Positions 6,014-23,791 of a stretch of 35,750 nt of DNA are shown piece by piece. This DNA is from Nitrospirota bacterium. GTDB taxonomy: Bacteria > Nitrospirota > Thermodesulfovibrionia > SZUA-242. The DNA lies in assembly GCA_003235715.1 (NCBI GenBank), contig QJVM01000027.1, positions 1 to 35,750 of the forward strand. Reading direction: 5' to 3'. The translations under genes were made by a program, and so were the position numbers. The notes under the pieces are model-generated. The model was not told the DNA's origin, searched no databases, and saw only the letters and a list, made by a program, of their open reading frames with translations. How positions within the stretch are numbered: position 1 is the stretch's first letter; every line of letters begins with the position of its first letter.

Positions 6014-6382
6014 CTATTTCTCCAGGAATTGGCTTACGATCCCGACCAGTTCCTGAGTCTGGATCGGCTTCGCGAGATAAGCATTGGCGCCCAGCGCAAG
6101 GGCCCGTTGCCGATCTTCCTCAGCCCCTTCCGTCGTGATAATCACGATGGGAATATCCTTGTACTCAGGGGTGCCCCGTAGGTGGTGAACCAGCTTCAGG
6201 CCATCCATCACCGGCATATTGATATCGGCAACAATCACGTCGAATTGCCGCTCCCCAATCAGCCGCAGAGCTTCCACCCCGTCCATCGCCTCAGTCACCC
6301 TGGCATCCTTCAGGCGTCGAAGCGCGAAGGACACGAGTTGCCGCATGGTGGGCGAGTCTTCGACAATTAGAATTTCCGCCAT
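6014..6382 (-). CDS. cheY: CheY-like single-domain response regulator
   Basis: A 122-residue receiver domain with no output domain. The acidic pocket is Glu8-Asp9, the phosphoacceptor is Asp53 in VADINMP, the switch Thr lies in IVIITTEG, and the conserved lysine is Lys105 in AKPIQ. It is the last gene of the chemosensory locus, after cheB, with an AAAGGG ribosome site just before its ATG. It probably accepts phosphate from the CheA of this locus and passes the signal to an unidentified output or acts as a phosphate sink. A second CheY-like gene opens the locus at 19987. The two share the same plan but differ in sequence. Confidence 0.9.
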   Translation of the reverse strand: MAEILIVEDSPTMRQLVSFALRRLKDARVTEAMDGVEALRLIGERQFDVIVADINMPVMDGLKLVHHLRGTPEYKDIPIVIITTEGAEEDRQRALALGANAYLAKPIQTQELVGIVSQFLEK

Positions 6383-6518: not shown

Positions 6519-7625
6519 TCAGCCCGCATGACCCTGCCGGCCGAATGAACCAGCTTCCGGGGTAACACCACAGATACGGACCATCTCGCCTGGAATCCGG
6601 TCCAGAGGCAACACCTGACGCGCCGCACCGGCCAGAATTGCATCCTGAGGCATGCCGAAGATAACCGCTGTTTCCTCGGATTCGGCAATAGTATAACCAC
6701 CGTTTCCGGTGATTTCCAACATGCCCTTGCGTCCGTCACCCCCCATCCCGGTGAGAAGGATTCCCATGAGTTTTCCCCCACATAGGCGGGCCGCCCCCTC
6801 CATCATCCGGTCGATGGAGGGAACGTAGGAATCCCCATCGCCGGCGTGACGGGTCTGGACAAAAATGCGGCCGCCGGCCTCTCCAAAGTGCGCGTGAGTG
6901 CCGCCTGCCGCGATATAGGCCGTACCCGGACTCAATGTTTCCCGGCCGCTGACTTCCTGTACACGGATGGGGCAGGTCCGGTTCAGCCTTTCCGCAAAAG
7001 TCCGGGTGAATCCGGCGGGCATATGCTGGCTGATAATAATCGGTACCGGAAAGTCTGCCGGAAGCTCCGAGAGAATGAACTGGATGGCCGACGGGCCTCC
7101 CGTGGAGGCTCCGATGGTGACCGCTCGGAGCGTCTGCACGCTCTGGTGGGACTGCCGTATGCGAACACTGCGCGAGAGAAGTTCCACCCTGCGGCGTACC
7201 TTGTCCATTCCCGCCGTGGCCAGGACTGCAATCCTGGAGGATAGTTCCCGGGACATGGAGACCATATCTGCCGTTCCCTGGCCTCTGGGCTTCGCAATGA
7301 AGTCCACTGCGCCGAGGTCCATGGCCTGAAACACCGAGGAGGTTTCGCTCTGGGCGCTGACCACAATCACCGGAATGGGGTGGTGGTGAAGCATCCAGCG
7401 AAGGAAGGCAAATCCGTCCATGACCGGCATCTCGAGGTCCAGAATAACAACGTCGGGTTGGAGTTGGACCACACGACTGATGGCTTCGTGGCCGTTGCCT
7501 GCCGTACCCACGACTTCAAATCCGCCCACGGAGCGTACGATCTGTCCGAAGGCGTGCCGGGTCAGCGCAGAGTCGTCCACCACAAGGACGCGAACCGGCT
7601 TGTCCAGTGCCGCCGGGCCCTTCAT
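6519..7625 (-). CDS. cheB: Chemotaxis response regulator protein-glutamate methylesterase CheB
   Basis: A 368-residue two-domain protein that removes methyl groups from, and deamidates, chemoreceptor glutamate sites. The N-terminal receiver domain has Asp17-Asp18 and phosphoacceptor Asp63 (ILDLEMP). The C-terminal esterase has the catalytic triad Ser174 (GASTGGP), His201 (SQHMPAGFT) and Asp297 (GMGGDG). The domains are joined by an arginine-rich linker at about 140-165. The ATG overlaps the cheR stop by four bases (ATGA), so the methylation and demethylation enzymes are translationally coupled. Length and motif order are standard for CheB. A 136-base gap separates it from the following cheY. 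Confidence 0.95.
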   Translation of the reverse strand: MKGPAALDKPVRVLVVDDSALTRHAFGQIVRSVGGFEVVGTAGNGHEAISRVVQLQPDVVILDLEMPVMDGFAFLRWMLHHHPIPVIVVSAQSETSSVFQAMDLGAVDFIAKPRGQGTADMVSMSRELSSRIAVLATAGMDKVRRRVELLSRSVRIRQSHQSVQTLRAVTIGASTGGPSAIQFILSELPADFPVPIIISQHMPAGFTRTFAERLNRTCPIRVQEVSGRETLSPGTAYIAAGGTHAHFGEAGGRIFVQTRHAGDGDSYVPSIDRMMEGAARLCGGKLMGILLTGMGGDGRKGMLEITGNGGYTIAESEETAVIFGMPQDAILAGAARQVLPLDRIPGEMVRICGVTPEAGSFGRQGHAG

Positions 7626-8485
7626 GGAAGCCCTCCGGGGACCGCTTTCTGGTATACCATGTCATTCTTCAGGTGGCGGAGAGAAAATGCTGTGGAGATG
7701 TTCATAAGAGATTCCGAATGCCCCAGAAGGAGCCAGCCTCCACCCACCAAGCGATCATTAAAGTTCTCCATGACCTTTTTCTTGGCTGTCAGATCAAAAT
7801 AGATCAGGACGTTCCTGCAGAAGATGATGTCCATCGGCTCCAGAAGCCGGGTCCTGACAGAATCCAGAAGGTTCAGATTCCCCAAGGACACATACCTCTT
7901 GACCCCGTCCACAATTCGGTAGGAACCGTCCTCCTCCTGTTCAAAATATTTCCTGAGATAGTAGGCGTCAGTCGTTCTAAAGGAATTCTGGCGATAGACC
8001 CCGAGCCGGGCAACGCCAAGGACCCGCTGATTGATATCGCTTCCAAGAATCTGGATATCCCAGTCCCGGAGCTCAGGGTCCTCCATGATCAACATGGCCA
8101 GGGTATAGGGCTCTTCACCCGTGGAACATCCCGCCGACCAGATCCGGAGTCGGCGCGTCCTCCCTTTCCTATTCTTAAGTTCCGGGAGAATTTCCCTGCT
8201 GAACGCATCGAGTTGGCGCTGCTCACGAAAAAAATACGTCTCGTTAATCGTGAGCACGTCCATGACGTCGACCAGCTCCTCCTCCTTCCGCCGGTCATAG
8301 CGGAGAAACCGGTAATACTCCTTGAAGTCCGAGATATGGAGGATTTTCAATCTCCGGGCAAGCCGCTTTTCAAAGAGCCCCCTCGAACCCTCGTCAAAGA
8401 AAATGCCGCAATAGTCGTGGAAGTAATCCCTTAACAGCCGGAACATTTCGTCGGACAGGGTAACGGATTCGTCAAGCTTGAGCAT
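7622..8485 (-). CDS. cheR: Chemotaxis protein methyltransferase CheR
   Basis: S-adenosylmethionine-dependent methyltransferase that methylates glutamates on chemoreceptors, about 287 residues. It has the small N-terminal helical CheR domain, then the Rossmann-like catalytic domain. The SAM-binding motif is WSAGCSTGEEPYTLA, followed by LGSDIN and FCRNVLIYFD. There is no TPR extension. The ATG at 8485 has GGGAG eight bases upstream and lies inside the end of the HEAT-repeat gene (14-base overlap); a TTG one codon upstream is a less likely start. It overlaps cheB by four bases. Confidence 0.95.
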   Translation of the reverse strand: MLKLDESVTLSDEMFRLLRDYFHDYCGIFFDEGSRGLFEKRLARRLKILHISDFKEYYRFLRYDRRKEEELVDVMDVLTINETYFFREQRQLDAFSREILPELKNRKGRTRRLRIWSAGCSTGEEPYTLAMLIMEDPELRDWDIQILGSDINQRVLGVARLGVYRQNSFRTTDAYYLRKYFEQEEDGSYRIVDGVKRYVSLGNLNLLDSVRTRLLEPMDIIFCRNVLIYFDLTAKKKVMENFNDRLVGGGWLLLGHSESLMNISTAFSLRHLKNDMVYQKAVPGGLP

Positions 8486-10472
8486 CAAGACACTCCCGGA
8501 TCACGAGAGTGACCGAAGGGTCCTCCTCCCGGGTCAGGTGATCCCGGAGGGCCCGCACCGCTTCGCCCGAACGGGAACGTGCGAGGGTTTCCGCCACAGA
8601 CTTGCGAACAGACCAGTCCTCATCCTCCAGCAGAGGCAGGATAGCGCCCTCGGCTTCCGGTCCCCCGACCACAGACGAAACAGCCTGGACCGCACTCCTC
8701 CGGATTTCAGCATCGACATCCTTCAGTGCCGTCTGCAGAACCGGAAAACACTTCTCGCCGCCAACCCTTGCGAGCGTCTCCATAGCGGCGACCCTGACGA
8801 GTCCGCACGGATCCTCAAGCATGCTGACCAGCGTCTGTTCGCTCTCCTCTGAGGTAAAATGCGCAAGCGTCTGTGCCGCTGCCGCCCTGACCCAATCATC
8901 CTCATCACGAGCCACCAGGAGGATATTTTCCAGAGCATGTCTGCTGCCCGTCTCACCAAGGGTGAGTGTTGCGACGCGGCGGATCTCCGGGATTTCATCC
9001 GTGAGGGCCGTCTGAAGGGCTTTCTCGGCGTCTTCACCGCCGATTCGGGAGAGCGCCTCCACGGCCGCCATACGCACAGGGACCTCGGCGTCCTTCAGGG
9101 CAAAGGTCAGGGCGTCGACGGCCGATTTCTCGCGAAGGAGTCCCAGCAGCATTGAGTAGTTCCGGCGGAGAACAGGGTTCTTTTCCTTGAGCATGCTGAT
9201 GGCCCGCGGTCGGGACACACCAACCGGCAGACGGGACAGAGCGAGAACCCCGGCTTCCTGCACATCCTGATACTGATCCGTCAGGAGTCGTTCAATCTCC
9301 GGCACCGCACCGGTGTCCCCCAACTGTCCCAGGGCCAGTGCGGCATAGGCCCGAACATGTCCATCGCTGTCCCGGAGACGCTCACGAAGATGGGCGCCAA
9401 ACTCAGGATGCGCTGTTTCCCTGGCGACACGGCATACCATTCGCCGACGGTAGGGCACTGGCTCACGGAAATACGGGATGAGCGCGGCCGGACGGGCCCG
9501 GGCAATATTCATCAAGGATTCCCAAACCGGCTCCTCGAGGTCCTCGTCCCCTGAAAGCTCGAGGAGAAGCGATAGGGCCCTCTCATCCTCGAGAAATCCA
9601 AGTAGAAGAACAGCCGCCTGTCGCAGTTCCCGCTCTTCTGCCTTGGCGAGGTGGATCAGAAGTTCAAGGGCAGTGCCCGCAAGTTCTCGCTCGATAATTC
9701 CGGCAAACGTCTGGACGGGCGACGCACGGTACATGGAGACCAGCGCACGAAGGGCCTCCAGCTGCACTGGCCTGGATGTGGACGCCAAATAAGGGACTAC
9801 GGCCTCGAAAGCGTCGGGGTGAGCAAGCCGACCCAACGCTCTCAAGGCAGGCTCCCGCAGGGCACGCCTCGACAGTGCCCGAATCAGGGGAGGAACGGCC
9901 CGGGGATCCCGGAACTTGCCCAGAGCATCCGCCGCGGGAAAGGCCACCCAAAGCTCACCTTTCTCCAGGATTTGGATCAACGCGTTCAAGACAGAGGCAT
10001 CCCCGATAATTCCAAGGTGCTCGACCGCGGAGGCCTGAACGTTCTCATCGGAGTCGTGAAGGGCCTCGAGCATGAGTGGAACGCAGGCCGGGTCGCCCAC
10101 TTCGCCAAGGATGTCGATGATGAACTTTCTACGGTCTCGGTCTCCTGATCTGAAGGCGTCCATGAGGCATACGGTCGCCAGTCTTCCGAAACGGATGAGC
10201 GCCTCGATGGAGGAGTTCCGGGCTCCTGCGTTGGCGCGATCATCGAGAAGTTCCAACAGTCCCGGTAGATACTCAGGCCGCCGCCGCGTCACGATGGACT
10301 CCACGGCCGCCTTGCGCACCCTCCAGTCCCCGTCCCTGAGCAGGCTGAGAAGGGCCCCGCGACAAGATTCGTCCGGACATCCCGCCAGGCCGAGGGCGGC
10401 CTGCCGCCGGACCTCCACGTCGGTGGAGCCCGCCTTCTCAAGAAGGCTCTTATGCTCTGTCTGATGCGTCAT
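8472..10472 (-). CDS. HEAT-repeat protein in the chemosensory locus
   Basis: A 666-residue protein made almost wholly of HEAT / PBS-lyase-like repeats of about 31 residues. Recurring units have the form DxDxxVRxAAxxALxxxG, for example DGDWRVRKAAVESI and DSDENVQASAVEHLG. Such solenoids are protein-protein scaffolds. No catalytic motif, signal peptide or membrane segment is seen. The ATG at 10472 has AAAGAGG nine bases upstream; a TTG two codons earlier is possible but too close to that site. It overlaps cheW by 23 bases and cheR by 14, so it is firmly inside the che operon. A role in organising or regulating the receptor-kinase array is inference from position only. Confidence 0.88.
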   Translation of the reverse strand: MTHQTEHKSLLEKAGSTDVEVRRQAALGLAGCPDESCRGALLSLLRDGDWRVRKAAVESIVTRRRPEYLPGLLELLDDRANAGARNSSIEALIRFGRLATVCLMDAFRSGDRDRRKFIIDILGEVGDPACVPLMLEALHDSDENVQASAVEHLGIIGDASVLNALIQILEKGELWVAFPAADALGKFRDPRAVPPLIRALSRRALREPALRALGRLAHPDAFEAVVPYLASTSRPVQLEALRALVSMYRASPVQTFAGIIERELAGTALELLIHLAKAEERELRQAAVLLLGFLEDERALSLLLELSGDEDLEEPVWESLMNIARARPAALIPYFREPVPYRRRMVCRVARETAHPEFGAHLRERLRDSDGHVRAYAALALGQLGDTGAVPEIERLLTDQYQDVQEAGVLALSRLPVGVSRPRAISMLKEKNPVLRRNYSMLLGLLREKSAVDALTFALKDAEVPVRMAAVEALSRIGGEDAEKALQTALTDEIPEIRRVATLTLGETGSRHALENILLVARDEDDWVRAAAAQTLAHFTSEESEQTLVSMLEDPCGLVRVAAMETLARVGGEKCFPVLQTALKDVDAEIRRSAVQAVSSVVGGPEAEGAILPLLEDEDWSVRKSVAETLARSRSGEAVRALRDHLTREEDPSVTLVIRECLDAQA

Positions 10473-10938
10473 GGCCAAGGGCCTCTTTCACTTGCCTCAT
10501 TTCGCCGGCCGACAGCAGACGGTCCACATTGAGAATTACAATCATCCTCCGGTCTGTCTTTGCAATGGACTCCATGTATTCGGACTCAATGCCGCCGAAG
10601 ATGGACGGGGGCTGGCTTATGCAGGAATTCTCCAGTTGGAGGATTTCTTCCACATCATCCACGCGGATTCCCAGACGCTCCCGTCCCTTCTTCAGAATAA
10701 TGACCCGGTTTTTCGCGGCAGGGTTGGGCTTCAGACCAAAGCGGGTTCTAAGGTCCATTACGGGAATCACGCGTCCCCTTAATTCGATCACCCCCCTAAG
10801 AAAATCGGGCATATTCGGGATGAGCATGCACTCCTGGTCCTGAAGGATTTCCACGATCCGCCCCACACCTAATGCAAACGCCTTGTCCGCCATCCTAAAG
10901 ACGGCAAACTGGCCTGTGACCTCTTTTGTTCGCATCAT
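10450..10938 (-). CDS. cheW: CheW coupling protein (second copy)
   Basis: A 162-residue single CheW domain that bridges chemoreceptors and the CheA kinase. The conserved block is FLRGVIELRGRVIPVMDLRTRFGL, followed by LGIRVDDVEEIL and a C-terminal MIVILNVDRLL. Two ATG codons stand in tandem at 10938 and 10935. The first overlaps the stop of the upstream receptor gene (ATGA). Compared with the CheW at 15868, it lacks the long N-terminal extension. Each CheW in this locus may serve one of the two receptors or occupy different array positions; this is inference. Confidence 0.92.
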   Translation of the reverse strand: MMRTKEVTGQFAVFRMADKAFALGVGRIVEILQDQECMLIPNMPDFLRGVIELRGRVIPVMDLRTRFGLKPNPAAKNRVIILKKGRERLGIRVDDVEEILQLENSCISQPPSIFGGIESEYMESIAKTDRRMIVILNVDRLLSAGEMRQVKEALGHDASDRA

Positions 10939-12914
10939 GCCCGGAATCTTCCCGTCATCGCGTAGAGTTCCTCGGCCTGAGCGGAGAGTTTCGAGATCTG
11001 TTCATCCAGGCATTTCAGGATCTGGGTGTTCCTTGAACACAGCTGGTTCACGTTCGCAAATGCCTCGGTGAGTTCAGGGATGAGCGACCTCTGCGGAGAG
11101 GTCGCCTCCGCGATCTGGAAAAGCTTCTCGTTCGTGCGCTGCAGGTTTTCGGACATTGCCCGGATGCCTTCATGCTGTTCCTGCGTTCCCCTTCGCAGCA
11201 TCTCCACCACGCTTCGAACCGTGCCCACATGTCCACTGAGCGGGGGCAGTCCCTTCTCCTGCCTTGCCAGTGCGCCCGTCACCTGCTGTGTCATGGCCTG
11301 GATATTCGCCACCAGATCGCCCACGTGACGTATGGCCTCTCCCTGCTCGACCGTGGCACGCTGGATGTTAAGAGCCATTTCCGCAGAGCGACGGGCGTGA
11401 TCCAGCATCCCTGTCAGGGCCTCTTCGGTTCGGCCGACGAGGGTCTCCCCTTCCTGGACACGGGACATCCCCCGGGCCGTGCTGTGAATGGCCTCCGCAA
11501 TCTCCTTCTGGATGGCACCGACGATCACGGAAATTTCCCGCGTCGAACCCGCCGTCCTTTCAGCCAGGCTCGCAATCTCGTCGGCAACCACGCCGAAGGC
11601 CTTGCCCTGCTCACCTGCCTGGGCAGCCAGAATGGCGGCGTTCAGACTGAGCAGGTTTGTCTGTTCGGTTACCTCTCGAATGACGCCCAGCACCTTGGTG
11701 ATGTCCTTGGACCTCACTCCCAACTGGTCCATGATCTCCGCAGACGCAGAGACTTCCTGCCTGATCTTGGACATCCCCTTTCGTGTCTCATGGACCGCGG
11801 CCATGCCCGTCCCGCTGGCCTTCTCCGTCACCTCGGCCGCCCGTATGGCCGCATCGTGGGCACTGGCCTCAACACCTCGAACAGAGGCACCAAGTTCGTG
11901 GAGGGCACTTATGGCATTGTCAACCGTCTCCGACAGGGCCGACATGCCCGAGGAAATCTCGCGTGATGAGTCCGATATATCGGAGACCGAAGCGTAGGTC
12001 CTTTCAGCAGATTCGAAAAGTTCATCCGCCGAGTGGGCAACCTCTCCCATGCTGGACCTCATCTCCAGCATGGCCGATACATTTTCATAAAGCAGGGCCG
12101 AAAGCATTTCCGAACTTTCGTGCACATCCCGTTGAGACGCGTCGAGGGCGGACACAAGACGGCCGGCCTCGTCGAGACCTCCCGATTCCACCTGGGCATC
12201 CCCGGAGAACGGAATGAGGCAGTCCCCGGCGGTCAGGCTCTCCCTTCTAAGTCCGGCAGCCACCGCAGCCGAACGCGCTCCCATGTCCCGCAGCGCAACG
12301 AGTTCCTTCTGGATGGCACGCGATAGGGCCGCGAGCCGATCCCTTTCGCTTCCGTGTCCAGGAGTCCCGGCCTCTTCTGCAGGCACGAGCCCGGATACCT
12401 GGGAAACAAAATCCTTCAGGGGCCGCCGGACCAGCTGCCTCCACCCCAAATGCCCTGTAACAGCCAGAAGACAGAGCAGGAAAGCGGTCCCGCCGTATGC
12501 GCGCCCCCTCTTCCTTTGAACCTTCCCGGAAAGAACAGGCTCGGAATAATCGAACACGAGGATTCCGGACATTCCGCTCCAACCCTGAACCGGGTACTCG
12601 AATCGGATGCCCCTGGCAGGTGCCGAACCCCGGGATTCTCTTACGGATCTCTTTACACCGATGGGAGATCCGCCACCTTCCCACGTGACTCCCAGAAGGT
12701 CCCCATCCTTCTCTAGAAAGGCGGCCAGCATCTGTTGGAAACCTTCCGCATCCCGGGGGGATACGCCCACCGTTCCCAAGGTTTCTGAAACAGCCCTGTA
12801 ATGTTCCCTGCTCTCTTCCAGCAGGACGCTTCGGGCTGCGGCGAGCCAAGCCTGGGCCCCGCATATCCAGAGCACGCCCAACGCCGAGGCGAGATAGAAG
12901 AGGTTCCGTTTCAT
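10935..12914 (-). CDS. Methyl-accepting chemotaxis protein
   Basis: Chemoreceptor of about 659 residues from ATG 12914, preceded by GGAG and starting five bases after the previous receptor's stop. An ATG at 13046 is in frame but would lie inside the upstream gene. The order is a membrane segment (about 5-27), a small extracytoplasmic domain (28-138), a second membrane segment (about 139-158), a degenerate HAMP-like linker, and a cytoplasmic signalling coiled coil. The hairpin tip reads TEQTNLLSLNAAILAAQAGE. The conserved glutamate of the usual AAIEAARAGE is replaced by Leu, as in the neighbouring receptor. The sensor domain matches no ligand-binding fold I recognise. Confidence 0.88.
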   Translation of the reverse strand: MKRNLFYLASALGVLWICGAQAWLAAARSVLLEESREHYRAVSETLGTVGVSPRDAEGFQQMLAAFLEKDGDLLGVTWEGGGSPIGVKRSVRESRGSAPARGIRFEYPVQGWSGMSGILVFDYSEPVLSGKVQRKRGRAYGGTAFLLCLLAVTGHLGWRQLVRRPLKDFVSQVSGLVPAEEAGTPGHGSERDRLAALSRAIQKELVALRDMGARSAAVAAGLRRESLTAGDCLIPFSGDAQVESGGLDEAGRLVSALDASQRDVHESSEMLSALLYENVSAMLEMRSSMGEVAHSADELFESAERTYASVSDISDSSREISSGMSALSETVDNAISALHELGASVRGVEASAHDAAIRAAEVTEKASGTGMAAVHETRKGMSKIRQEVSASAEIMDQLGVRSKDITKVLGVIREVTEQTNLLSLNAAILAAQAGEQGKAFGVVADEIASLAERTAGSTREISVIVGAIQKEIAEAIHSTARGMSRVQEGETLVGRTEEALTGMLDHARRSAEMALNIQRATVEQGEAIRHVGDLVANIQAMTQQVTGALARQEKGLPPLSGHVGTVRSVVEMLRRGTQEQHEGIRAMSENLQRTNEKLFQIAEATSPQRSLIPELTEAFANVNQLCSRNTQILKCLDEQISKLSAQAEELYAMTGRFRA

Positions 12915-12918
12915 GTCC

Positions 12919-15789
12919 CTATTTCCAGCTCCCCCTTCCGAGTTTCTCCAGCATCTGCCGGACGGCATCGTAATCCTGATCCGTGGCGGGAATAAAGGCC
13001 GTGTATTCGGGGTTGATGGATTCGAGCACCTGCCGTCCTCTCGCATCGGATACGTTTAGGGAGAAGAGGGCCCGCTTGAGCAGTTCCTCCTTTGGCGGGG
13101 CCAGGAAAGGCGACACGCAAATATTGAACTCGGCAATCTCCTCCGAACGGGCCAGGATCCTCAAGCCCTGACTCGCGTACTTGAAGGCCACGGACTCCAT
13201 GAGCCCTCCTGCGTCGTATTCCTTCCGAAGCACAGCCTCCGCCACTTCGTCATGATGGCCGAGGTATTCGTGGGCGCGCAGGTCATCAAGACCCAATCCG
13301 ACTTCCATAAGCATCGCCCGGGGAGCAAGGTGACTGGAAGTGGAACGTTCGTCTCCAAAAGCGAAACTACAGCCCTTCAGGTCCGAAAGGCTCCGATACC
13401 CTGAGTCATCCCTGACCACGATAGCCGCTCGGTGCGCAGGCGCACGCTCAGACCTTTGAGCGCGCGCGATAACTCGAGCGTTACACGCCTCCTTCGCCTC
13501 GATATAGGTCGTGGGTGTCATGAAGGCCAGGTCAATACGGTCATCCTCAAGGTCCCGGATGGTTTCCTGGAAGTCCACCGTTACCCGAAGTTCTATTTCC
13601 AGACCCAAACGTTCTGTCAGGTATTCCGAAAAGGGAAGAAACTTCCGGTACATTTCCGAGGGGGACTCCAGCGGAACGACACCAAGACGGAGGGTCTTTT
13701 CAGCCCGCAACCGGCTGTTGGTCTTGAACCGCCCGACTTCCGTGGCCAGAAGGTCACTGTCCTTGGCCACTTCGCGCACCATGCGATTCATGGCGCCTGA
13801 AATATCCCGGTTCTGTTCCGGAAGGTTCCGAATCTTCTCAAGGGAACCCAGGATCTGGTCCGTACCTACCTTTTGCTCACGGACCCCGCGGGATATGCGC
13901 TGAATTCCTTCCGAGACCCGCTCAACGGCTTCGGCGATCTGCCGACTGCTCCCCGACTGCTCCACCATGGATTTCTCCACCTGGGAGGTAAGTATTCGTA
14001 TGTGATCCGCCGATGCATTGATCAATTTCGAGCCCTTGTTCTGTTCGCTCGTAGCCTTGGCAATCTGTTCCACGCGATCTCTCACATGGGCCATGGCCGT
14101 CGTAACCACCTGCACGCTCTTGGCCTGCTCGGCGGTAACCCGTTCTATGGCGCAGGACATTTCTGAGGAACGGCTGGAAACTTCAACCATTCGGGCAAGT
14201 GCGGCCATGGCGGCCTCCGACAGTTGAATGCCTTCGGCAACCCTCTCGGTGGCATCCTGCATGTGCGACGTAACTTCGCCGACATCGGTCTGTACGGAGC
14301 GAATCAGTTCTGCGATTTCTTTCGTCGAATCTGCCGTTTTTGCCGCAAGTCCCTTAATCTGGCGGGCCACCACGGAAAACCCGCGCCCGTGGTCCCCGGC
14401 CTGAGCGGCCAGGATAGACGCGTTCAACGAAAGAAGCGTCGTCTGGTCGGTGACTTCGTCGATCACCCCCAGAATGCTTCCGATATCCTCCGAACGGGCA
14501 CTGAGACGCTTGATTTGTTCCGACGTGCTCACCACGCTGGCGCGAATCCGGTTCATCCCCTCCACGGTCTTGTGGACGGTCTCCATTCCCTCTCCGGACG
14601 CGGATTGGGCAACAGCCCGGGACAGGCTGACGGAATCCTTGGCACTCCGTTCCACTTCCCGGATGGACGCGCCAATCTCCTCAATCGCCGCCATGGTGTC
14701 CTCCGCGGAGAGAGCCAGTTCACCGGCAGCCCCAGCCACCTCGTTTATGGCCGAAGACATCTCCTCGATGGAGGCAGACGTTTCGTCCACGGCCTCAAAG
14801 AGGTCCCGCGTACGCTGCACCACCTGTTCACTCGAGGCGAACATCTCCGAGGACGTGGCGGCCGTCTCCTCGGCCGATCGGGAGAGTTCGTCGACGCTCC
14901 CCGTAATGATGGACATGGACATGGTCAGTTGTTCCACCGAACTTGAGATGCTTTCGATCGCCCCGGCCTCGAGGGTTGTCCCCTGAAGAAGGTCCCGGGC
15001 ATCCTGACGTAACCGTTCCGTCATGTGTCCAACCCGGTCCGCCACATCCCGGATTCGGTTAACGATCAGAGCCACTTTGAGAAGAGCGTGCTTCAGGTCC
15101 CGGACCATGACCCCAAGTTCATCCCTGGATGTGGATTCCACGTTAAATCCGAGGTCTCCTTCGGAAAGACGGTGGGAGGCCTCGACGACCTCCTTGACGG
15201 GTTTGAGAATCACCTTCCGCAGCATGAGGATGAGGCAGAGGGAAAGGGACAGGATTCCGGCCAAAGACCCCCAAACCGCAAACCACACATACCTTGAGAA
15301 ACGGTTTCGCACCTCGGTCGTGTCGAGCGTGACCATGACCACGCCCAGAATCTCGGCGTCCCGGGCGTGACAGGTCGCGCACGTCTCTCTGTTCAGCATG
15401 GGCCGGTAGAATAACGTTTCTGTCTCGGTTTCGACGGTAACGGGCCCTTTTCTGGTCTGAAGCTTCCGGAGGATCTCCTCGGGGATGATGGGGAGTCCCT
15501 TTTCAAAAGCTCTCCCTCCACGGCCGTTCATGACCTCGACATCCTTGACGCCGGAGATTTCGTGAAGGTCGGCAACGAGGGTCCTGGTTACGTCTAGCTG
15601 CCCCTGCTCCATGGAAGCTTCAACACTTCGTGTGACAACCTCGGCAATGCGCCCGGAGTTCCGCAGGGACAGGTCGCTGAGACCACGGCGCTGCAAGGTC
15701 AGCACAGTGGTACCGATGACTGCAGCGCCGGCCACCATCAACCCGGTTACGAGGGCAAGCACCTTGACATCAATCCGATTCGTCATCAT
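12919..15789 (-). CDS. Chemoreceptor with c-type heme motif and C-terminal PhnD-like domain
   Basis: A 956-residue receptor. Membrane segments at about 9-31 and 168-190 enclose a periplasmic domain of about 135 residues. That domain contains one CxxCH motif (ETCATCHARD, Cys137-Cys140-His141), suggesting covalent heme and redox or gas sensing. A HAMP domain (about 190-243) and a methyl-accepting signalling coiled coil (to about 690, tip QTTLLSLNASILAAQAGD) follow. The last 255 residues (LRLGVVPLESPSEMYRKFLP, IDLAFMTPTTYIEA, FGDERSTSSHLAP) look like a PhnD/phosphonate-type periplasmic-binding-protein fold. No membrane segment follows residue 190, so that domain should be cytoplasmic, which is unusual. 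Tandem ATGs at 15789 and 15786 have a poor ribosome site. A strong hairpin lies in the 78-base gap upstream. Confidence 0.88.
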   Translation of the reverse strand: MMTNRIDVKVLALVTGLMVAGAAVIGTTVLTLQRRGLSDLSLRNSGRIAEVVTRSVEASMEQGQLDVTRTLVADLHEISGVKDVEVMNGRGGRAFEKGLPIIPEEILRKLQTRKGPVTVETETETLFYRPMLNRETCATCHARDAEILGVVMVTLDTTEVRNRFSRYVWFAVWGSLAGILSLSLCLILMLRKVILKPVKEVVEASHRLSEGDLGFNVESTSRDELGVMVRDLKHALLKVALIVNRIRDVADRVGHMTERLRQDARDLLQGTTLEAGAIESISSSVEQLTMSMSIITGSVDELSRSAEETAATSSEMFASSEQVVQRTRDLFEAVDETSASIEEMSSAINEVAGAAGELALSAEDTMAAIEEIGASIREVERSAKDSVSLSRAVAQSASGEGMETVHKTVEGMNRIRASVVSTSEQIKRLSARSEDIGSILGVIDEVTDQTTLLSLNASILAAQAGDHGRGFSVVARQIKGLAAKTADSTKEIAELIRSVQTDVGEVTSHMQDATERVAEGIQLSEAAMAALARMVEVSSRSSEMSCAIERVTAEQAKSVQVVTTAMAHVRDRVEQIAKATSEQNKGSKLINASADHIRILTSQVEKSMVEQSGSSRQIAEAVERVSEGIQRISRGVREQKVGTDQILGSLEKIRNLPEQNRDISGAMNRMVREVAKDSDLLATEVGRFKTNSRLRAEKTLRLGVVPLESPSEMYRKFLPFSEYLTERLGLEIELRVTVDFQETIRDLEDDRIDLAFMTPTTYIEAKEACNARVIARAQRSERAPAHRAAIVVRDDSGYRSLSDLKGCSFAFGDERSTSSHLAPRAMLMEVGLGLDDLRAHEYLGHHDEVAEAVLRKEYDAGGLMESVAFKYASQGLRILARSEEIAEFNICVSPFLAPPKEELLKRALFSLNVSDARGRQVLESINPEYTAFIPATDQDYDAVRQMLEKLGRGSWK

Positions 15790-15876: not shown

Positions 15877-16653
15877 GGTTTCTATCACCAGCAGTTCATC
15901 AAGATTGAGCATGGAGACGAAACGGTGCTCGGTCCGGATCACACCGGTGATAAACCGCGACTCTTCCTCAGAGAGGGTGTTCAGGGACGGCAGGATATCC
16001 TCGGTCCAGGTGGTGAGAACGCCGCTGATGCTGTCCACTTTCGCGCCCACCGGTTCATGGCCTTTGGAGAAAACCAGGATCCTCGGCGCCAGCGGTGCTT
16101 CGCCCCGGATACCGAGTCGCTGCCTCAGGTCGAACACCGGAATCACCCTCCCCCTGAGGGACATGATGCCCAGAAGATAGGAAGGAGTTCGCGGAACCCT
16201 CGTCACTGCACGGTAGAGCTGGACTTCTTTCATCTCCAGCAGGTTGACTGCGTATTCTTCGTCACCCAACCGGAAAGCCAGGAACTTTATCTGATTCCCC
16301 CGTCGGGTCCTGTCCTGAATTTCATCCCGGTCCAGGTAATCGTCGACGTCCGTTTCATCGTCATATTCCGGAAGCGTTTCCACCTCTGCCGGTGTGGGCT
16401 CCGGCGAAAGCGGGACGCCTGGCGTCAAGGTTTCAAGAACCTCTGCGGGCTCTTCCGGGGACAGCCCGCTTCCCGCCGGTAGCGGTTCAGGTTGAAGAAC
16501 AGGCGGTCCCGAAGGCGGGCCGTCGGCCTCAAGCGGGGACTCCCCACCGGATAGGGTGCCCTCCGGGGTCTCCCGATCTACGCGCGCACGTCTCTGCCTC
16601 CGCTCTTCCTCCCGCGCCTCGCGGATCTGCTTACGTATCTTGGATATGTCCAT
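15868..16653 (-). CDS. cheW: CheW domain protein with long N-terminal extension
   Basis: A 261-residue protein. Residues 1-30 are a highly charged helix (REAREEERRQRRAR), 30-95 are proline- and glutamate-rich, and about 96-115 are very acidic (DDETDVDDYLDRDE). A standard CheW domain begins near residue 120 (IKFLAFRLGDEEYAVNLLEM, then LLGIMSLRGRVIPVFDLRQRLG). It couples receptors to CheA. It sits between the AAA ATPase gene and the heme receptor gene. The extension of about 115 residues is not part of a normal CheW and looks disordered; it may tether a partner. Start is ATG 16653 with a weak AGGATG site. Confidence 0.9.
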   Translation of the reverse strand: MDISKIRKQIREAREEERRQRRARVDRETPEGTLSGGESPLEADGPPSGPPVLQPEPLPAGSGLSPEEPAEVLETLTPGVPLSPEPTPAEVETLPEYDDETDVDDYLDRDEIQDRTRRGNQIKFLAFRLGDEEYAVNLLEMKEVQLYRAVTRVPRTPSYLLGIMSLRGRVIPVFDLRQRLGIRGEAPLAPRILVFSKGHEPVGAKVDSISGVLTTWTEDILPSLNTLSEEESRFITGVIRTEHRFVSMLNLDELLVIETGP

Positions 16654-16769: not shown

Positions 16770-17618
16770 CTACTTTTGAGAACCCTCTTTTTCCCACACC
16801 AGGGCTGACGTCGGGACCAGGTCAAAGTCTCGGGCCACGTTGGCCACAATATCGGCATGGATCGAGTCCACCTCACGGATAAACCCTTCGAGCAGGGCGT
16901 TGGAAGCAAGGTTGTTGATGAGGCGAGGCACCCCCGCCGCATAGCGGTAAAGCGCCTCCACGGCGTCATCTTCAAAGAGCGGTTCCTGTCGGCCCGCCAC
17001 GGAAAGCCGATGTTCGATATAGGGCTTAACCTCTCCGGGCAGAAGAGGCCCGAGGTGATACTGCATACCGATTCTTTGGCGGAGGGGTTTCTGAGCAGGC
17101 TGTTTCAGTTTGCGCTGGAGGTCCGGCTGCCCGAGGAGAACCACGCTGACGAGGTTCTCCTCGTCCAGTTGAAAATTCGTGAGGAGCCGGATCTCCTCAA
17201 AAGTTCCCCGCCCGGAAACAAGCTGTGCCTCATCGATAATGACTACGGGAGTCATTCCCCGGCCATACAGGTCGTATAGGCGTCCATAGATCGCCTCCAG
17301 AATATCCTCCTTCTGGAATCGGCCCTCCTCCAGTCCCAGGCGCCGCGCCAGAGTCCGAAGAAACTGCGCCGGTGTGAGACGTGGGTTCAGTACAGTGATC
17401 ACCTGGTGGGTATCGGCGGGAAGAGTGTCCATGAGGGCTCTCGAGAGCGTCGTCTTCCCACATCCCACTTCACCCGTGAGGACCACCAGTTCCTTTTCGA
17501 GAACCGCATACTCGAGACGGGCCAACGCCTCTTCGTGTCGCTTCCCCAGAAAGAGAAAACGGGGGTCCGGCGTCTTGCTGAAAGGCCGGCACGTTAATCC
17601 GTAAAAGGTCTCGTACAC
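16770..17618 (-). CDS. ExeA-like AAA+ ATPase inside the che operon
   Basis: A 282-residue ATPase starting at GTG 17618, three bases after the cheA stop. The N-terminus MYETFYGLTCRPFSKTPDPR is characteristic of ExeA/GspA-type ATPases of secretion and surface systems. Walker A is GEVGCGKTT (49-57), Walker B is VVIIDEAQ (about 125-132), and sensor and arginine regions follow (LLGQPDL, LRQRI). There is no membrane segment or peptidoglycan-binding domain after the ATPase core, unlike full-length ExeA. Tight linkage to cheA suggests a role in the chemosensory system, such as array placement or coupling to an envelope machine. That role is inference; the ATPase family is firm. Confidence 0.88.
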   Translation of the reverse strand: MYETFYGLTCRPFSKTPDPRFLFLGKRHEEALARLEYAVLEKELVVLTGEVGCGKTTLSRALMDTLPADTHQVITVLNPRLTPAQFLRTLARRLGLEEGRFQKEDILEAIYGRLYDLYGRGMTPVVIIDEAQLVSGRGTFEEIRLLTNFQLDEENLVSVVLLGQPDLQRKLKQPAQKPLRQRIGMQYHLGPLLPGEVKPYIEHRLSVAGRQEPLFEDDAVEALYRYAAGVPRLINNLASNALLEGFIREVDSIHADIVANVARDFDLVPTSALVWEKEGSQK

Positions 17619-17621: not shown

Positions 17622-19622
17622 CTACCCCGCACCGGATGGGGCCTTTTGCGTCCGGCTGGTTGCCTCCTCCATCAGGGCTTCCACGTCCAGAACCAGGATG
17701 ATCTTGTGCTTACCAACTTCGGCCGCCCCGGCAATGCCCCTCAGGTTCTCCAGATGCCTTCCCAAAGCCTTGATCACGATTTCCTGCTGCCCGATGAGGT
17801 CATCCACCACAAAGCCCATCCTCCGCCCACCAAAACCGGTAACGACGACATAGGTGGCCTCGGCCCGTCGCACGCTCTCCAGCCCGAATATCTTCTGCAA
17901 CCGGACGAGGGGAAGCAATCCGCCCCGGAGTTCGAGGACCTCCTTCCCCTCGATGTACTGTATATCCCCCTCATCAATGAGGAGAGTCTCGGCCGTGGAT
18001 ACAATGGGCACAGCAAACGTCTCCCCGGCCACCGACACCAGAATGGCCTTGATGATCGCTAGCGTGATCGGAATCGTCACCGTGACGGTGGTCCCTTTTC
18101 CGACCTCCGTCTCCACTTCTACAAATCCACCCAGAGACGAGACCTTGTCCTTGACCACATCCATCCCCACCCCTCGTCCCGAGACCTCACTGACCGCCGA
18201 AGCTGTGCTCAGCCCGGGTTCGAAGATGAGCTTGACCACTTCCGGGTCATCCAACTCGGCCCCGGCACTCACGAATCCTTTCTCAACCGCCTTCTTGAGA
18301 ACCTTGTCCAGCTGGACCCCGGCACCGTCGTCAGTGATTTGAAAAACCACGTGATGGCCTCTTGGAAAAGCCCTGAGCGTCACGACGCCCCTCTGGGGCT
18401 TGCCCGTTTTCTCCCTCTCTCTGAAGGGTTCGATGCCGTGGTCAATCGCGTTCCGGATGAGATGCATGAGAGGGTCGATCACCTCCTCGGCCAGTAGGGT
18501 ATCGATTTCCGTTTCTTCACCGTAAAGCTGCAGATCGATTTCCTTACCCCGGTCCTGGGTGTATCGACGGACGACTCTCGTCAACCGGGAAAAGATCTGA
18601 CCCACCGGCACCATCCGGACCTCGAGAATCTGGTTCTGGAGTTCGTTCAGACGTTTCTCCAATCCCTTGGCCACCTTCTGAAGATCCGCCCCATGGGACG
18701 AATATCCGTGATCTTCCAGAAATTCCGCTCCGATCCGGGCCACCGCACCCTTGGTCAGGACCAGTTCCCCCACCGTGTTCAGAATCGCATCCAGTTTGGA
18801 AACATCCACCCGCACAGTGTTTGAAGAACTCTTCAGGAGAGGGTCCTGCCGGCCCGAAGGTTCGGCCTCTTGACCAGCCTCGGCCGGCTTCGGGCCCGAA
18901 GGCGAAACCAGCTCTTCCACGATCGCGCCCTTGAACAGCTCCTTCATTTGTTCCCTGGACCGGGTTGTCCCCACCACCAAGTCGAACCCGAGGTTACCGG
19001 GCTCAACCTTTGTAGACTTGGGCATCGTTGCGATCAATTCGCCGAGGGTTCCGATCTTCGCCGTGACAGACTTGAGCTCCTCCTCAAAAGCCATGAGATC
19101 GAACTCCACGCTTACCGTAAACACGCCTTTGCCTGCGGCAACCCCTGTCCGAAGACGGTGCTCTTCATACTCGGACAGGACCCGGGAAATGGATTCCGGG
19201 ATTCCCGGGACACGTCCCCGGGGCTCTTCTGGCACCCCTCCCTTGGTTCGAAACTCTGCGATCTCCGACAGGACCTCTTCTACCGAAGTGCCTTCCGACT
19301 TTCCGCCCGCCACTTCACCAAGCAGCGTCTTCAGAAAGTCCACGATGGAGAGGAGAAAGGCCACGGTCCGCTCGTCAAAAGGTCTCTTCCCCAACCGAAG
19401 TTCATCCAGCAGGGTCTCCGTGCCGTGACTGAGATCTGAAATCCCCTTCTGTCCGAAAAGACCAGCCAACCCCTTCATGGTGTGCATGGATCGAAAGACA
19501 CCGTTGAGCGTATCGGGGCGGGGGCTGCCAGGCAAGGCGTCTCGAAGGTCGAGAAGACCGTCTTCGGTCTCCCGGAGCAGCTCCTCGGCCTCCGAGATGA
19601 ATTCCTTCATGGGGTCGGTCAT
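17622..19622 (-). CDS. cheA: Chemotaxis histidine kinase CheA
   Basis: A 666-residue sensor kinase that phosphorylates CheY and CheB. The HPt domain carries phospho-accepting His47 in SMHTMKGLAGLFG. A P2-like region lies at about 165-235 and is not the textbook E. coli type. The dimerisation helix pair spans about 270-345. The ATPase N box is LIRNAIDHGIE (388-398), G1 is DDGAGV (431-436), the F region is FEPGLSTA, and G2 is GRGVGMDVV (482-490). A CheW-like regulatory domain runs from about 520 to 655. The start overlaps the stop of the upstream cheY by four bases (ATGA). It is the only CheA in the window, so both receptors, both CheW and both CheY probably work with it. Confidence 0.96.
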   Translation of the reverse strand: MTDPMKEFISEAEELLRETEDGLLDLRDALPGSPRPDTLNGVFRSMHTMKGLAGLFGQKGISDLSHGTETLLDELRLGKRPFDERTVAFLLSIVDFLKTLLGEVAGGKSEGTSVEEVLSEIAEFRTKGGVPEEPRGRVPGIPESISRVLSEYEEHRLRTGVAAGKGVFTVSVEFDLMAFEEELKSVTAKIGTLGELIATMPKSTKVEPGNLGFDLVVGTTRSREQMKELFKGAIVEELVSPSGPKPAEAGQEAEPSGRQDPLLKSSSNTVRVDVSKLDAILNTVGELVLTKGAVARIGAEFLEDHGYSSHGADLQKVAKGLEKRLNELQNQILEVRMVPVGQIFSRLTRVVRRYTQDRGKEIDLQLYGEETEIDTLLAEEVIDPLMHLIRNAIDHGIEPFREREKTGKPQRGVVTLRAFPRGHHVVFQITDDGAGVQLDKVLKKAVEKGFVSAGAELDDPEVVKLIFEPGLSTASAVSEVSGRGVGMDVVKDKVSSLGGFVEVETEVGKGTTVTVTIPITLAIIKAILVSVAGETFAVPIVSTAETLLIDEGDIQYIEGKEVLELRGGLLPLVRLQKIFGLESVRRAEATYVVVTGFGGRRMGFVVDDLIGQQEIVIKALGRHLENLRGIAGAAEVGKHKIILVLDVEALMEEATSRTQKAPSGAG

Positions 19623-19987
19623 ACCATCAGGACTTTTTTGACCAGATCCTTCAAGGCATCTCCCTTGAACGGCTTGGTGACATAGTCAAAGGCACCAAGG
19701 GCCATCCCCCGCCGGCGATCTTCCTCCCCGCGCTCCGTCGTAATGATAATGAGCGGAATCTCCCGGTAGGTCGGGTTGCTCTTGACGAAATTGATGAGCT
19801 CGAGCCCATTGATGTCGGGCATGTTGATGTCCGTCAGGATAAGATGGAACGTTCGCGAGGGAAGCAGCCTCAGCGCTTCGAACCCGGATTCGGCCTCCAC
19901 GATATCCAGTTCCTCCACCTCCTCAAGGGTGGAGCGGATCATGGCCCGGGTCGTAGTGGAATCTTCGACAATCAATACGGATCTCAC
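19619..19987 (-). CDS. cheY: CheY-like response regulator at the head of the che locus
   Basis: A 122-residue receiver domain from GTG 19987, which has GAGGGGG seven bases upstream. A longer frame from 20035 would add an arginine-rich stretch that is not part of the fold. The acidic pocket is Glu8-Asp9, the phosphoacceptor is Asp53 (LTDINMP), the switch Thr is in IIITTERG, and the lysine is Lys105 (TKPFK). It ends overlapping the cheA start (ATGA). It probably receives phosphate from that kinase. The nature of the output (motor, pili or another process) cannot be read from this window. Confidence 0.92.
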   Translation of the reverse strand: MRSVLIVEDSTTTRAMIRSTLEEVEELDIVEAESGFEALRLLPSRTFHLILTDINMPDINGLELINFVKSNPTYREIPLIIITTERGEEDRRRGMALGAFDYVTKPFKGDALKDLVKKVLMV

Positions 19988-20178
19988 GGTGTTTCCCCCT
20001 CGTCGGCGCCGGCCGTACCATTCACCGAAGCCCAAATGCCCATCATAGGGACGGGATGAGGCATGGCAAAGTCAACGCCTAGATTATTATCCTTCGTCAC
20101 TCTCGTAATCGGTATTAAAGCTCGATCCGAAATTCAGAGCGGCCCCCAGCCGCGACAGGGGCTGGACCTGGTCCCGTG
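19988..20178 (-). promoter_or_regulatory. Leader region ahead of the che locus
   Basis: This 191-base gap between queC and the first cheY is the only sizeable non-coding stretch before the che genes, so it probably holds their promoter. It contains an AT-rich patch (about 20080-20120) in GC-rich surroundings and a TTGACT hexamer (20075-20070). The best TATGAT downstream (20047-20042) is 22 bases away, which is too far for a normal promoter. No convincing sigma-28 or sigma-54 site was seen. A CCAGCC/GGCTGG hairpin just after queC may end its transcript. Confidence 0.3.
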
Positions 20179-20996: not shown

Positions 20997-22064
20997 TTAA
21001 CGGATATCGTCATCGCTGCCGAGGACACCGTCCATACCGGCGGCCGTAAGCCTGAAGCCCCGGTGCCCGGATAGGGGTTCGTAGCGATAGACATTTTGAC
21101 GCACCGACGCAGGAAGACTGGCCAACTCGTCGAGAGTCTGGGGGTACTCACCGGTACGGACCGCATAGCTTTCCGCCTTAAACCTGAGGAGTTCAAGGGT
21201 AACCCCCTGGTCAAAACGCTCCAGATAGGGGGCGACTCCCGTAGCCTGGACCATGGCCCATATGACCATCACCAGGATGAGGCCGCCTCCCATGAGCGTG
21301 AAGGCCGAAGACTCGGAAATCTTGGTCCGGCGACGTACCGGCGCCGGTTCATGCACGACCTCTTCTTTGATGCGGAGTTCCCGGACGAATCCCTTTTCCA
21401 CGAGGGACACCAGCCCGCGGGCGACCTCGATCTGGTCGAGCATGGTGATGTCCATTATGGTGTTCACGTCGCTGTGCCCGTCTACCTGGGCATATACCGA
21501 GGCTTCGGCACGATCGAGATCTTCCGGCGGATTCTCCGTTCTCTCATAGACCGCGTTCAGATTGACCTTGCCTTCATAATAAGTCCATTCGTCCGTGACG
21601 CGCAGCCCTTCCATGAGAAGGTGCTCCGTATCGAGAGAGACGGCCACCTTGGTGTCCACGCTGATTTCCTGGGCCAGGAACTCGTAGTTTCCCTCTTTCC
21701 AGCTGAACACCTGGATCACCGTCTGGGTCATCTGAGCGGCCAATACCTCGAGGAGACTCTCAAGGGGAACCTTCCCCATTTCCAGAAGCGTTCTCCCAAG
21801 TCGCTCTGCCGACCGCTTGCTCAAATCCAGGGCCTTCTGAAGGTCTGATTCTGTAATCAGACCCCGTTGGATCAGCATGCGCCCAATCCGTGCACCCTCC
21901 TCACGTCTCTTGGAGGATGCCCCTGCGATATTGCCCTCCAGGAAAACGATACGGACCGAATCCAGCTTGCCCCGCAGAGACAAAATTCCTGTCTTCCGCT
22001 GGAAATAGATGAGCTGAAGAATGTCCGCCAGCCCGAAATCTTTGAGATTGCCCTCGAGCGCCAT
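20997..22064 (-). CDS. DUF4388 (PATAN) protein with membrane anchor and pseudopilin-like tail
   Basis: A 355-residue protein from ATG 22064, which shares one base with the upstream stop (TGATG) and has AGGGGG ten bases before it. Residues 1 to about 155 form a DUF4388/PATAN domain (MALEGNLKDFGLADILQLIYFQRKTG, then GRMLIQRGLITESDLQKAL). A linker leads to one membrane segment (about 254-275). The last 65 residues (YPQTLDELASLP, FRLTAAGMDGVLGSDDDI) resemble the C-terminal part of type II secretion pseudopilins such as GspG, including the DG..GxDDDI end. PATAN proteins often occur with receiver-domain and motility or secretion systems. The domain combination is visible; function is unknown. Confidence 0.8.
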   Translation of the reverse strand: MALEGNLKDFGLADILQLIYFQRKTGILSLRGKLDSVRIVFLEGNIAGASSKRREEGARIGRMLIQRGLITESDLQKALDLSKRSAERLGRTLLEMGKVPLESLLEVLAAQMTQTVIQVFSWKEGNYEFLAQEISVDTKVAVSLDTEHLLMEGLRVTDEWTYYEGKVNLNAVYERTENPPEDLDRAEASVYAQVDGHSDVNTIMDITMLDQIEVARGLVSLVEKGFVRELRIKEEVVHEPAPVRRRTKISESSAFTLMGGGLILVMVIWAMVQATGVAPYLERFDQGVTLELLRFKAESYAVRTGEYPQTLDELASLPASVRQNVYRYEPLSGHRGFRLTAAGMDGVLGSDDDIR

Positions 22065-23791
22065 CAGCGAAACGCCCCCTTGCGTATGCCTATCCAACTG
22101 GAAACCATGCTCAGAACCACAAGCGCAACCCCCGCCATCCGGATGCCGTTGTCCGCCCCTGACTCATACAGAACCCAGAAAAAACGGGACACCCCCGAAA
22201 CCAACAGAATCCCGACCATGAAGAGGACGGAAAGGAGGAAACCCGCCCACCATCGACCTGAGTAATAATGCCCCACACCGGGGATCGCCGCCAGAATGCG
22301 CGCCCGCCGAACCCGGAGATCATAGTTCTTCTGGATCCGCAGGATCCTCGCGATACGTTCCTGCGGGTCGACCCCTCCGATCTGGAAGGACCCCGCAAAA
22401 CAGTCCTGGCAGATATTGACTCGGGAGGCACGCTTGTCACACACGGCGCAACGGATAGCACCGCACTTACGGCAACGGTAGGCCGCGCCCTTGTTCGCCG
22501 TCCGTTTTTCGACCACTCCAAAAAGGAAAAAAACCAAAAGGCTGGCCACGGGAGCCCAGGGAAGGGGAATCGGCCCCATAAACGGCTTCCAGACAGCCGA
22601 CTGGATATGCTGTACCTCGTCCGCGGAACCCATCACCAAGCTCAAAAGCCTCGTCTCTGGCAGGACTTCTTCCAGGACAACCTGCCCGGACGCCATGAAC
22701 CTGAATACCGCATCCGGGTCCGCGGCCTGAAGGGTCCTGAAGACCGCGTCTCCCTCATCAAATCGAAGTTCATCCCTGTACATCTGGCTCAGATTATATT
22801 CGACCACGGACCTCCCTTTCCCCCTTGCCTTCTCGAATTGCCCCACGGCAACACGGGTCTGACCGAGACGGTAGTAGCAGACTCCGGAGTTATTGAGCAC
22901 CTTGTAGTACAGGTCCCAAGTCGGTGGAATCGTTCCATAGAGCGCAAGGGCTCTGGAACAGTCTCCGCTGCGGGATGAGGCCAAAGCGAGGCTGAAGGTC
23001 TCTTCCGGCGTCTTGGCTGAGCTCAAGATTTCACGCACATAAGCCGGGGGCCGGCCTTCACGGAGGCCGACCAGCGCCTTGGCGCGCGCCGACGCCGGAA
23101 GTGCAAAGTTGGCCGCCACAGCAGAAACCACCGGATAGGCCAGAAGAAGAAGGACGGGGATGGACATAAGAAACGCCTTCTCTTTCCGTGAAAGATACTT
23201 CCAAAGAAGAACCGAGAAGAAGACCAGCGGCGGAATCAGGCCCAGCACGACCGTGGCCGCGGCCAGGGCCAGCAGCCACCAGCGGAGCTTTCCCTCGGCA
23301 TATTCATGGTTAACAAGGGGGACCGAAACCATAAACAGCACCACCCAGCCCGCCAGGAGCGCGGGCACGGCTGAAAGCAGAACAAGGACGGAAACCGTTC
23401 CCAGGCCCGAAACGAGCCAGGAAACGTTCCTGACGGAAGCCCCCAGAGCGCTGAGGAGCCAATTGAACCCAGAAAAAGGCTCGGAAAGAATCAGACGACG
23501 GGCGAGAAAAAAACGGGGCTCTGGAGATTCCGGGGCCAGCTTCGACGCCTCTTCGGCCAGGGACATCGCCATTTCTGCATCACCGCGTTCCGCGGCAGCG
23601 CGCGCCGCTTCCATTTTAACGCTCGCCGCCGCCCCCGCAAGGGTCTTTGCACTTTCACCGGTCGCCGCCTCCACCCGGCGCGCACCGGACAGAAAGAGCA
23701 GGGCGAGAAACCCTGCGACCACAATACCGCCGAAGAGGACGGCGATCAGGCTGTTATCCTTAGCGGAAAAACGGCTTATTCTTGGGAACAT
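22064..23791 (-). CDS. Multi-pass membrane TPR protein with zinc ribbon
   Basis: A 575-residue protein of unknown function, starting at ATG 23791. A longer frame to 24028 runs antiparallel-free into plsY and is unlikely. Membrane segments lie at about 16-35, several between 128 and 230, one near 412-426, and three near 500-565. Between them are TPR-like helices at about 55-90 and 265-365. A zinc-ribbon-like cluster of three CxxC pairs follows (Cys440, 443, 448, 451, 461, 464 in YRCRKCGAIRCAVCDK and NICQDCF). It precedes the DUF4388 gene with a one-base overlap, so the two are probably partners. I recognise no named family. Confidence 0.78.
   Translation of the reverse strand: MFPRISRFSAKDNSLIAVLFGGIVVAGFLALLFLSGARRVEAATGESAKTLAGAAASVKMEAARAAAERGDAEMAMSLAEEASKLAPESPEPRFFLARRLILSEPFSGFNWLLSALGASVRNVSWLVSGLGTVSVLVLLSAVPALLAGWVVLFMVSVPLVNHEYAEGKLRWWLLALAAATVVLGLIPPLVFFSVLLWKYLSRKEKAFLMSIPVLLLLAYPVVSAVAANFALPASARAKALVGLREGRPPAYVREILSSAKTPEETFSLALASSRSGDCSRALALYGTIPPTWDLYYKVLNNSGVCYYRLGQTRVAVGQFEKARGKGRSVVEYNLSQMYRDELRFDEGDAVFRTLQAADPDAVFRFMASGQVVLEEVLPETRLLSLVMGSADEVQHIQSAVWKPFMGPIPLPWAPVASLLVFFLFGVVEKRTANKGAAYRCRKCGAIRCAVCDKRASRVNICQDCFAGSFQIGGVDPQERIARILRIQKNYDLRVRRARILAAIPGVGHYYSGRWWAGFLLSVLFMVGILLVSGVSRFFWVLYESGADNGIRMAGVALVVLSMVSSWIGIRKGAFR

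Follow-up and report, generated by a model that had tools for sequence, protein, structure and literature searches.

An ATPase inside a chemosensory operon

What is an ExeA-type ATPase doing between cheA and cheW? The question is raised by a contig of a Nitrospirota bacterium (QJVM01000027.1, assembly GCA_003235715.1), of which positions 1 to 35,750 form the window, meaning the whole stretch of DNA analyzed here. A first-pass annotation had described such an ATPase starting three bases after cheA and followed by a cheW, and that description is borne out. The frame at 16770-17618 lies on the minus strand (read on the plus strand, this stretch contains stops), begins with GTG, encodes 282 amino acids, and starts 3 bases past the stop of cheA (19622-17622). 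A gap of 116 bp separates it from the CheW-domain gene that follows (16653-15868, 261 amino acids), whose product is called CheWx below. In a profile search the ATPase matched Pfam AAA_22 at 3.6e-26. Among NCBIfam models it scores best against TIGR03015, the XrtA/PEP-CTERM ATPase, but its 241 bits fall short of the cut-off of 324.5 bits; relatives from other che loci score similarly (242 bits in L033, 233 bits in L035). The protein has a MYETFYGL-type start, and both Walker motifs of its AAA_22 domain are intact. In an alignment of 26 sequences, Walker A is GEVGCGKTT (residues 49-57; 17448-17474, minus strand), with G49, G52, G54, K55, and T57 invariant, and Walker B is the equally invariant D129-E130 (17229-17234, minus strand); R182 and G229-x-P-R232 are also kept. 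We take all four to be AAA+ landmarks. The stretch is a real gene for an intact AAA+ ATPase.

The AlphaFold2 model of this protein is a single AAA+ unit with a mean pLDDT of 92 and disorder in the last 9 residues. Neither the 282 amino acids nor the model contains a C-terminal transmembrane and peptidoglycan-binding region. The annotation was right that a peptidoglycan-binding part is missing, but for short ATPases of the TIGR03015 type, whose model is 269 positions long, this is nothing out of the ordinary. Foldseek placed MuB first (8xvb, E 1.4e-10, TM 0.67/0.76), a profile search also matched MuB (6.3e-13), and TnsC, ORC/Cdc6, and RuvB were among the other top structural matches.

All genes of the operon lie on the minus strand, in the order cheY, cheA, ATPase, cheWx, MCP1, MCP2, cheW2, a HEAT-repeat gene, cheR, cheB, and cheY2. 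The first CheY-type receiver (19619-20035) overlaps cheA by 4 nt, and CheA itself (17622-19622, 666 amino acids) has Hpt, dimerization, kinase, and CheW-like domains by family search. Family searches also identified the second receptor MCP2 (10935-13046), a tail-less second CheW (10450-10938), the 668-amino-acid HEAT-repeat protein (8472-10478), and CheR (7622-8488). CheB (6519-7625) was named by sequence and position and the second CheY-type receiver (6014-6382) by sequence. The HEAT-repeat gene overlaps both cheW2 and cheR and is kept in most relatives of the operon. The receptor MCP1 (12919-15789) carries a CxxCH motif, read directly off the sequence, and, by family search, HAMP, an MCP signal domain, and a C-terminal PhnD-like binding domain. 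The CxxCH, likely a heme site, sits in the N-terminal part, and the PhnD-type domain at the opposite, C-terminal end, which is probably cytoplasmic. MCP1-like proteins of similar length and similarity recur across the relatives, and L102 has a PstS-like binding protein encoded separately beside MCP1. Upstream, at 20997-22097 on the minus strand, is a gene for a DUF4388 protein that carries a c-di-GMP-binding motif of the MshE type. Immediately upstream of cheY, most related loci have a DUF4388 gene. Several relatives also encode a coiled-coil and GAF protein of about 273 amino acids between cheB and the second cheY (as at L104:18461-19282), a gene not found in the window.

Conservation of the cheA-ATPase pair

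Is the ATPase a regular part of this operon? In a first set of 61 genomes, the source MAG plus relatives, 22 contain this CheA (E below 1e-140), with the ATPase directly downstream in 21 of them. These pairs span 13 family codes, with ATPase identities of 54-70%. A wider set of 295 genomes of the phylum contained the CheA at E below 1e-110 in 89. The che loci read number 94, made up of 70 newly fetched ones out of these 89, the earlier genomes, and two named records; L031, L032, and L034 were excluded from the count as they were judged to duplicate G018, G308, and G240. The locus table was built from stop-to-stop frames and profile searches, because in several loci a greedy gene list hid cheWx or the ATPase gene behind longer antisense frames. 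The ATPase is present in 76 of the 94 loci and directly downstream of cheA in 75 of those 76, most frequently with an 8-nt overlap at the junction. In the remaining genome, G123, cheA is cut by a contig end, and the ATPase, cheWx, and the hook described below lie together on another contig.

Six genomes (G010, G037, G043, G051, G157, and G169) have the operon split, with cheY-cheA-ATPase at one site and cheWx-MCP1 and the rest at another, so that the ATPase stays with cheY-cheA. Adjacency that recurs across so many genomes argues that the ATPase is not a stray insertion, and there is good support for the proposal that it belongs to the core, or standing, set of genes in a chemosensory operon. 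That it merely shares a transcript with cheA is very improbable: it is indeed missing from some genomes, but it keeps its place beside cheA in two phyla and through operon splits, and a motif in its putative partner matches its presence. Loci without the ATPase retain the remainder of the operon, and it must therefore be dispensable for some arrays.

The second phylum is represented by L035, a record titled Proteobacteria bacterium SKW305. It has cheY-cheA-ATPase-cheWx, an ATPase of 48-50% identity, and a CheWx that begins MDIAEIRKK. Arrangement and hook are present in all three sampled species of its phylum; in the other two, CheWx starts MNIAEIRKKKKK. Beyond this start, the CheWx proteins of the second phylum are only 25-34% identical to that of the window by BLAST.

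A hook at the start of CheWx

What sets the neighboring CheW apart is its N terminus, a near-invariant motif followed by a variable tail and then the CheW domain. In the window, the hook is MDISKIRKQIR (residues 1-11; 16621-16653, minus strand), part of a helix predicted at residues 3-27. The variable linker covers residues 28-118 (16300-16572), and the CheW domain residues 124-255 (15889-16284; PF01584 at 6.5e-31). In the AlphaFold2 model of CheWx, residues 1-20 have a mean pLDDT above 80, and the helix gives way to disorder up to about residue 99 (pLDDT below 50 at 28-99) and then to the CheW fold.

Every readable CheWx of the ATPase-bearing genomes starts with M-[DN]-[ILVM]-x-x-[ILVA]-R-[KRQ]-[KQMR], a few from GTG, as in the VDISKIRKM of G026. 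This expression was loosened after inspection of the data; 51 of 71 fit the stricter form derived from the first set. The commonest version is MDIAKIRKK (33 of 71), and others include MDILAARKK, MDLLEIRKK, and MDLVELRKK. In a first tally of 70, all had R at position 7 and 68 had K at position 8. From the start of the motif to the CheW domain there are 38 to 184 residues of low-complexity tail, which drifts in length and sequence while the first nine residues stay near-fixed.

How specific is this start? The fetched loci contain 1,968 open reading frames of at least 100 amino acids, and 61 of these start this way; 60 match CheWx and one, in L153, is CheWx by position. A degenerate DNA pattern of the hook gave 15 matches in the 61 genomes, one per genome and all at CheWx starts, and none in reversed controls. 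The hook is private to CheWx. Two trivial causes of the conservation were considered and rejected. A conserved DNA signal does not fit, since wobble positions vary among the 15 matched stretches. Gene overlap does not fit either: the ATPase gene and cheWx frequently overlap by 20 nt, but 25 of 67 adjacent pairs have no overlap and six pairs are unlinked.

Gain and loss of ATPase and hook

The annotation had proposed CheA and the extended CheW as proteins to test for interaction with the ATPase, and its pointer to the extended CheW was right. Among the 94 genomes, 75 have both ATPase and hook, none has the ATPase only, none has the hook only, and 18 have neither; the remaining one, G078, is unreadable because the contig does not reach the start of its CheWx. 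The hook is thus present in 75 of 75 readable ATPase genomes and in 0 of 18 without the ATPase, where absence means absence at the che locus, G002 alone having been searched genome-wide. In that search the best match had 39% identity. G157, G169, and G265 are counted with the hook, and G076 has neither trait. The six genomes with split operons keep the hook although their ATPase and cheWx genes are unlinked.

The Fisher p of 1.6e-18 for the 71/17 subset is uncorrected for kinship; the fair test is the one on the tree. On an IQ-TREE tree of CheA (G123 omitted, rows with an unreadable CheWx uncounted, and 88 of 93 rows bearing both traits), the ATPase and the hook undergo five changes apiece, and these coincide every time. 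All 5 independent pairs are concordant, for a sign test of 0.0625, the lowest value that five pairs allow. A FastTree run, with G123 scored as ATPase-less, gave 7 changes of the ATPase and 6 of the hook.

The individual losses are instructive. The annotation had held that an otherwise identical che locus without the ATPase would count against its idea. Loci without an intact ATPase do exist (G002, G188, G159, and G248), but the hook is gone there too, which strengthens the link instead of breaking it. In G248, what lies between cheA and cheWx (locus L220) is an ATPase gene that runs only from its start to just before Walker A, apparently a decaying gene judging from its sequence; the CheWx of this genome is hookless, while its sister G304 has both traits. 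In G188, CheWx carries a different, lysine-rich tail of 159 residues and no hook. Taken together, the pattern suggests that the tag may plug the ATPase into the sensory array.

Seven ATPase-less genomes (L236, L237, L246, L247, L256, L259, and L261) have a receiver-type gene of 304-344 amino acids between cheA and cheWx; the one scored, in L247, is a receiver-GGDEF. ATPase-less CheWx proteins often open with lysine-rich tails (L219, L236, L246, L255, and L257 are examples), reminiscent of nucleic-acid- or membrane-binding tails. Such tails occur in at least 9 of the 18 ATPase-less genomes. Tail charge as a general cause was rejected, as the medians hardly differ between ATPase-bearing and ATPase-less groups.

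What might the ATPase do for the array?

The reading that we favor, at a probability of about 0.6, is that the hook recruits a dedicated ATPase partner to the array, which the ATPase then assembles, clusters, or positions. The CheW domain would build CheWx into the array. The hook, residues 1 to 9-11 with the pattern M-[DN]-[ILVM]-x-x-[ILVA]-R-K-K, lies in a short predicted helix, is tethered by a flexible linker whose length varies, and would dock onto the AAA+ unit of the ATPase. The ATPase shares its fold with MuB/TnsC, which form filaments or rings; it would become concentrated on the array and could use ATP for the array's assembly, clustering, or positioning, and perhaps also relay to an output other than flagella, e.g., type IV pili. 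Physical docking of the hook on the ATPase seems likely in view of their joint conservation. Oligomerization of the ATPase may be presumed, by homology only. As for purpose, organization of the array, through assembly or placement, is our tentative first choice, at somewhat less than even odds, because the layout of CheWx matches that of ParP (see below). Placement or remodeling, as the annotation had suggested, is plausible.

What if the ATPase instead faces outward, relaying to pili or polysaccharide? In this main rival, it belongs to an envelope machine for type IV pili or exopolysaccharide export that is under array control, and the hook joins sensor to machine. The nearest curated family, TIGR03015, is indeed linked to exopolysaccharide, and the system looks mostly non-flagellar: of the 22 genomes that carry this CheA, 6 gave a FliG_C match (a weak one, within a 470-amino-acid frame, in G000) and 16 gave none, whereas 33 of 39 other genomes gave one, and pilT is present in 61 of 61. 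The connection to type IV pili raised by the annotation therefore stands only in an indirect form. The receiver-type genes in the ATPase's place and the upstream DUF4388 gene, with its c-di-GMP-binding motif in the window copy, would also suit an output role. On the other hand, no pilus or export gene is constant in the operon in the loci read, and the conserved tag belongs to an array protein. We consider this alternative unlikely, roughly one chance in a few.

Could hook and ATPase be functionally unlinked? The basic start of CheWx would then bind membrane or DNA, and the joint losses would be single deletions. The two genes are adjacent and often overlap by 20 nt, so one deletion could remove the ATPase together with the start of cheWx in G002, G159, or G248, and at least 9 of the 18 ATPase-less CheWx proteins open with lysine-rich tails. 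The deletion objection is met best by the split operons and the second phylum, which show the pairing. Moreover, nine residues remain near-fixed while the adjoining tail drifts, and the tail of G188 is no truncation, being a different, lysine-rich sequence of 159 residues. Such independence is improbable.

Slightly less probable again is a tether to the nucleoid, in which the ATPase, binding DNA as MuB/TnsC do, holds the array to the chromosome and ATPase-less lineages use a basic CheW tail in its place. MuB is the top fold and profile match, many ATPase-less genomes have lysine-rich tails, and Frz arrays of M. xanthus are nucleoid associated, with the N-terminal region of FrzCD involved in DNA binding (PMC6952110). 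However, the ATPases are mostly acidic, with a median pI of 5.8, which does not favor DNA binding, and the lysine-rich tails are confined largely to one clade of the CheA tree.

Comparison with known systems

The favored reading, recruitment of the ATPase by the hook, has its nearest parallel in Vibrio. ParP combines an N-terminal ParC-binding part with a CheW-like domain and couples array formation to placement (PMC5706961). The architecture of CheWx and the co-occurrence of hook and ATPase fit a ParP-style plan, a putative ATPase-binding region joined to a CheW domain, and the coupling of ATPase to array by a two-part protein that is proposed for CheWx is like that of ParC/ParP (PMC5706961). 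The differences are clear as well. ParC is a ParA-like ATPase, while the protein here is of the ExeA/MuB type, an AAA_22 AAA+ protein with a MuB-like fold. ParP is an extra protein with an AIF domain of its own, while here the operon's first CheW carries a hook of only about 10 residues. Polar placement is no more than a candidate role for the ATPase here.

A terminal hook on a flexible linker is also known from the MuB/TnsC branch, with which the ATPase shares its fold. In ShCAST, TnsB decorates TnsC through a terminal hook of 15 residues, carried on a linker that is flexible and not conserved (PMC9371665). In the che loci there is no transposase or DNA target, and the hook is N-terminal and on a CheW. 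M. xanthus Frz is likewise a chemosensory system in which a divergent CheW shapes array distribution; the account consulted mentions no ExeA/MuB-type ATPase for Frz, and DNA contact there is through the receptor (PMC6952110).

GspA/GspB (ExeA/ExeB) of type II secretion pair an ExeA-type ATPase with a cognate partner encoded beside it (PMC9239104); the window's ATPase has no gspB neighbor and no secretin-binding partner, but che genes instead. Among the openly licensed papers whose titles were searched, none concerned an ExeA-type ATPase in a chemosensory operon or a CheW hook. The present locus represents a kind of chemosensory operon to which an AAA+ ATPase regularly belongs. It offers a precise candidate peptide-ATPase contact, residues 1-11 of one CheW, and it suggests that there is more than one way of tying arrays to ATP-driven machinery. 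It also gives a handle on the partners of the many short ExeA-like ATPases in export and pilus clusters.

The closest curated family of the ATPase brings a partner of its own, the XrtA/PEP-CTERM pair of a TIGR03015 ATPase and a TIGR03018 tyrosine autokinase. Like CheWx, the kinase has a short N-terminal motif and a tail before its domain: near TIGR03015 ATPases it shows an MSIIEQA-like start, about 100 residues, and then the domain. Unlike the XrtA pair, the window's ATPase has che genes around it, no exopolysaccharide or exosortase cluster, and a CheW as partner. The N termini of GspB and MshN probably resemble MSIIEQA-type starts as well. Might terminal hooks on floppy linkers be a general recruitment code of the ExeA/XrtA/MuB branch, adopted by arrays in at least two phyla? 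This is a speculative extension that we think doubtful. If it is true, every CheWx in an array would act as a line cast for an oligomer under ATP control, and assembly, placement, or output of the array would become ATPase driven. Chemosensory arrays would then have a second, unrelated counterpart to the ParA-type ATPases that serve them in other bacteria. MSIIEQA-like starts occur in L043, L045, L046, L050, L056, L061, and L062, with TIGR03018 scored in L046 only, and the proteins encoded right after the ATPase in L041 and L036 start MSIIYDALKK- and MSRVYRALER-.
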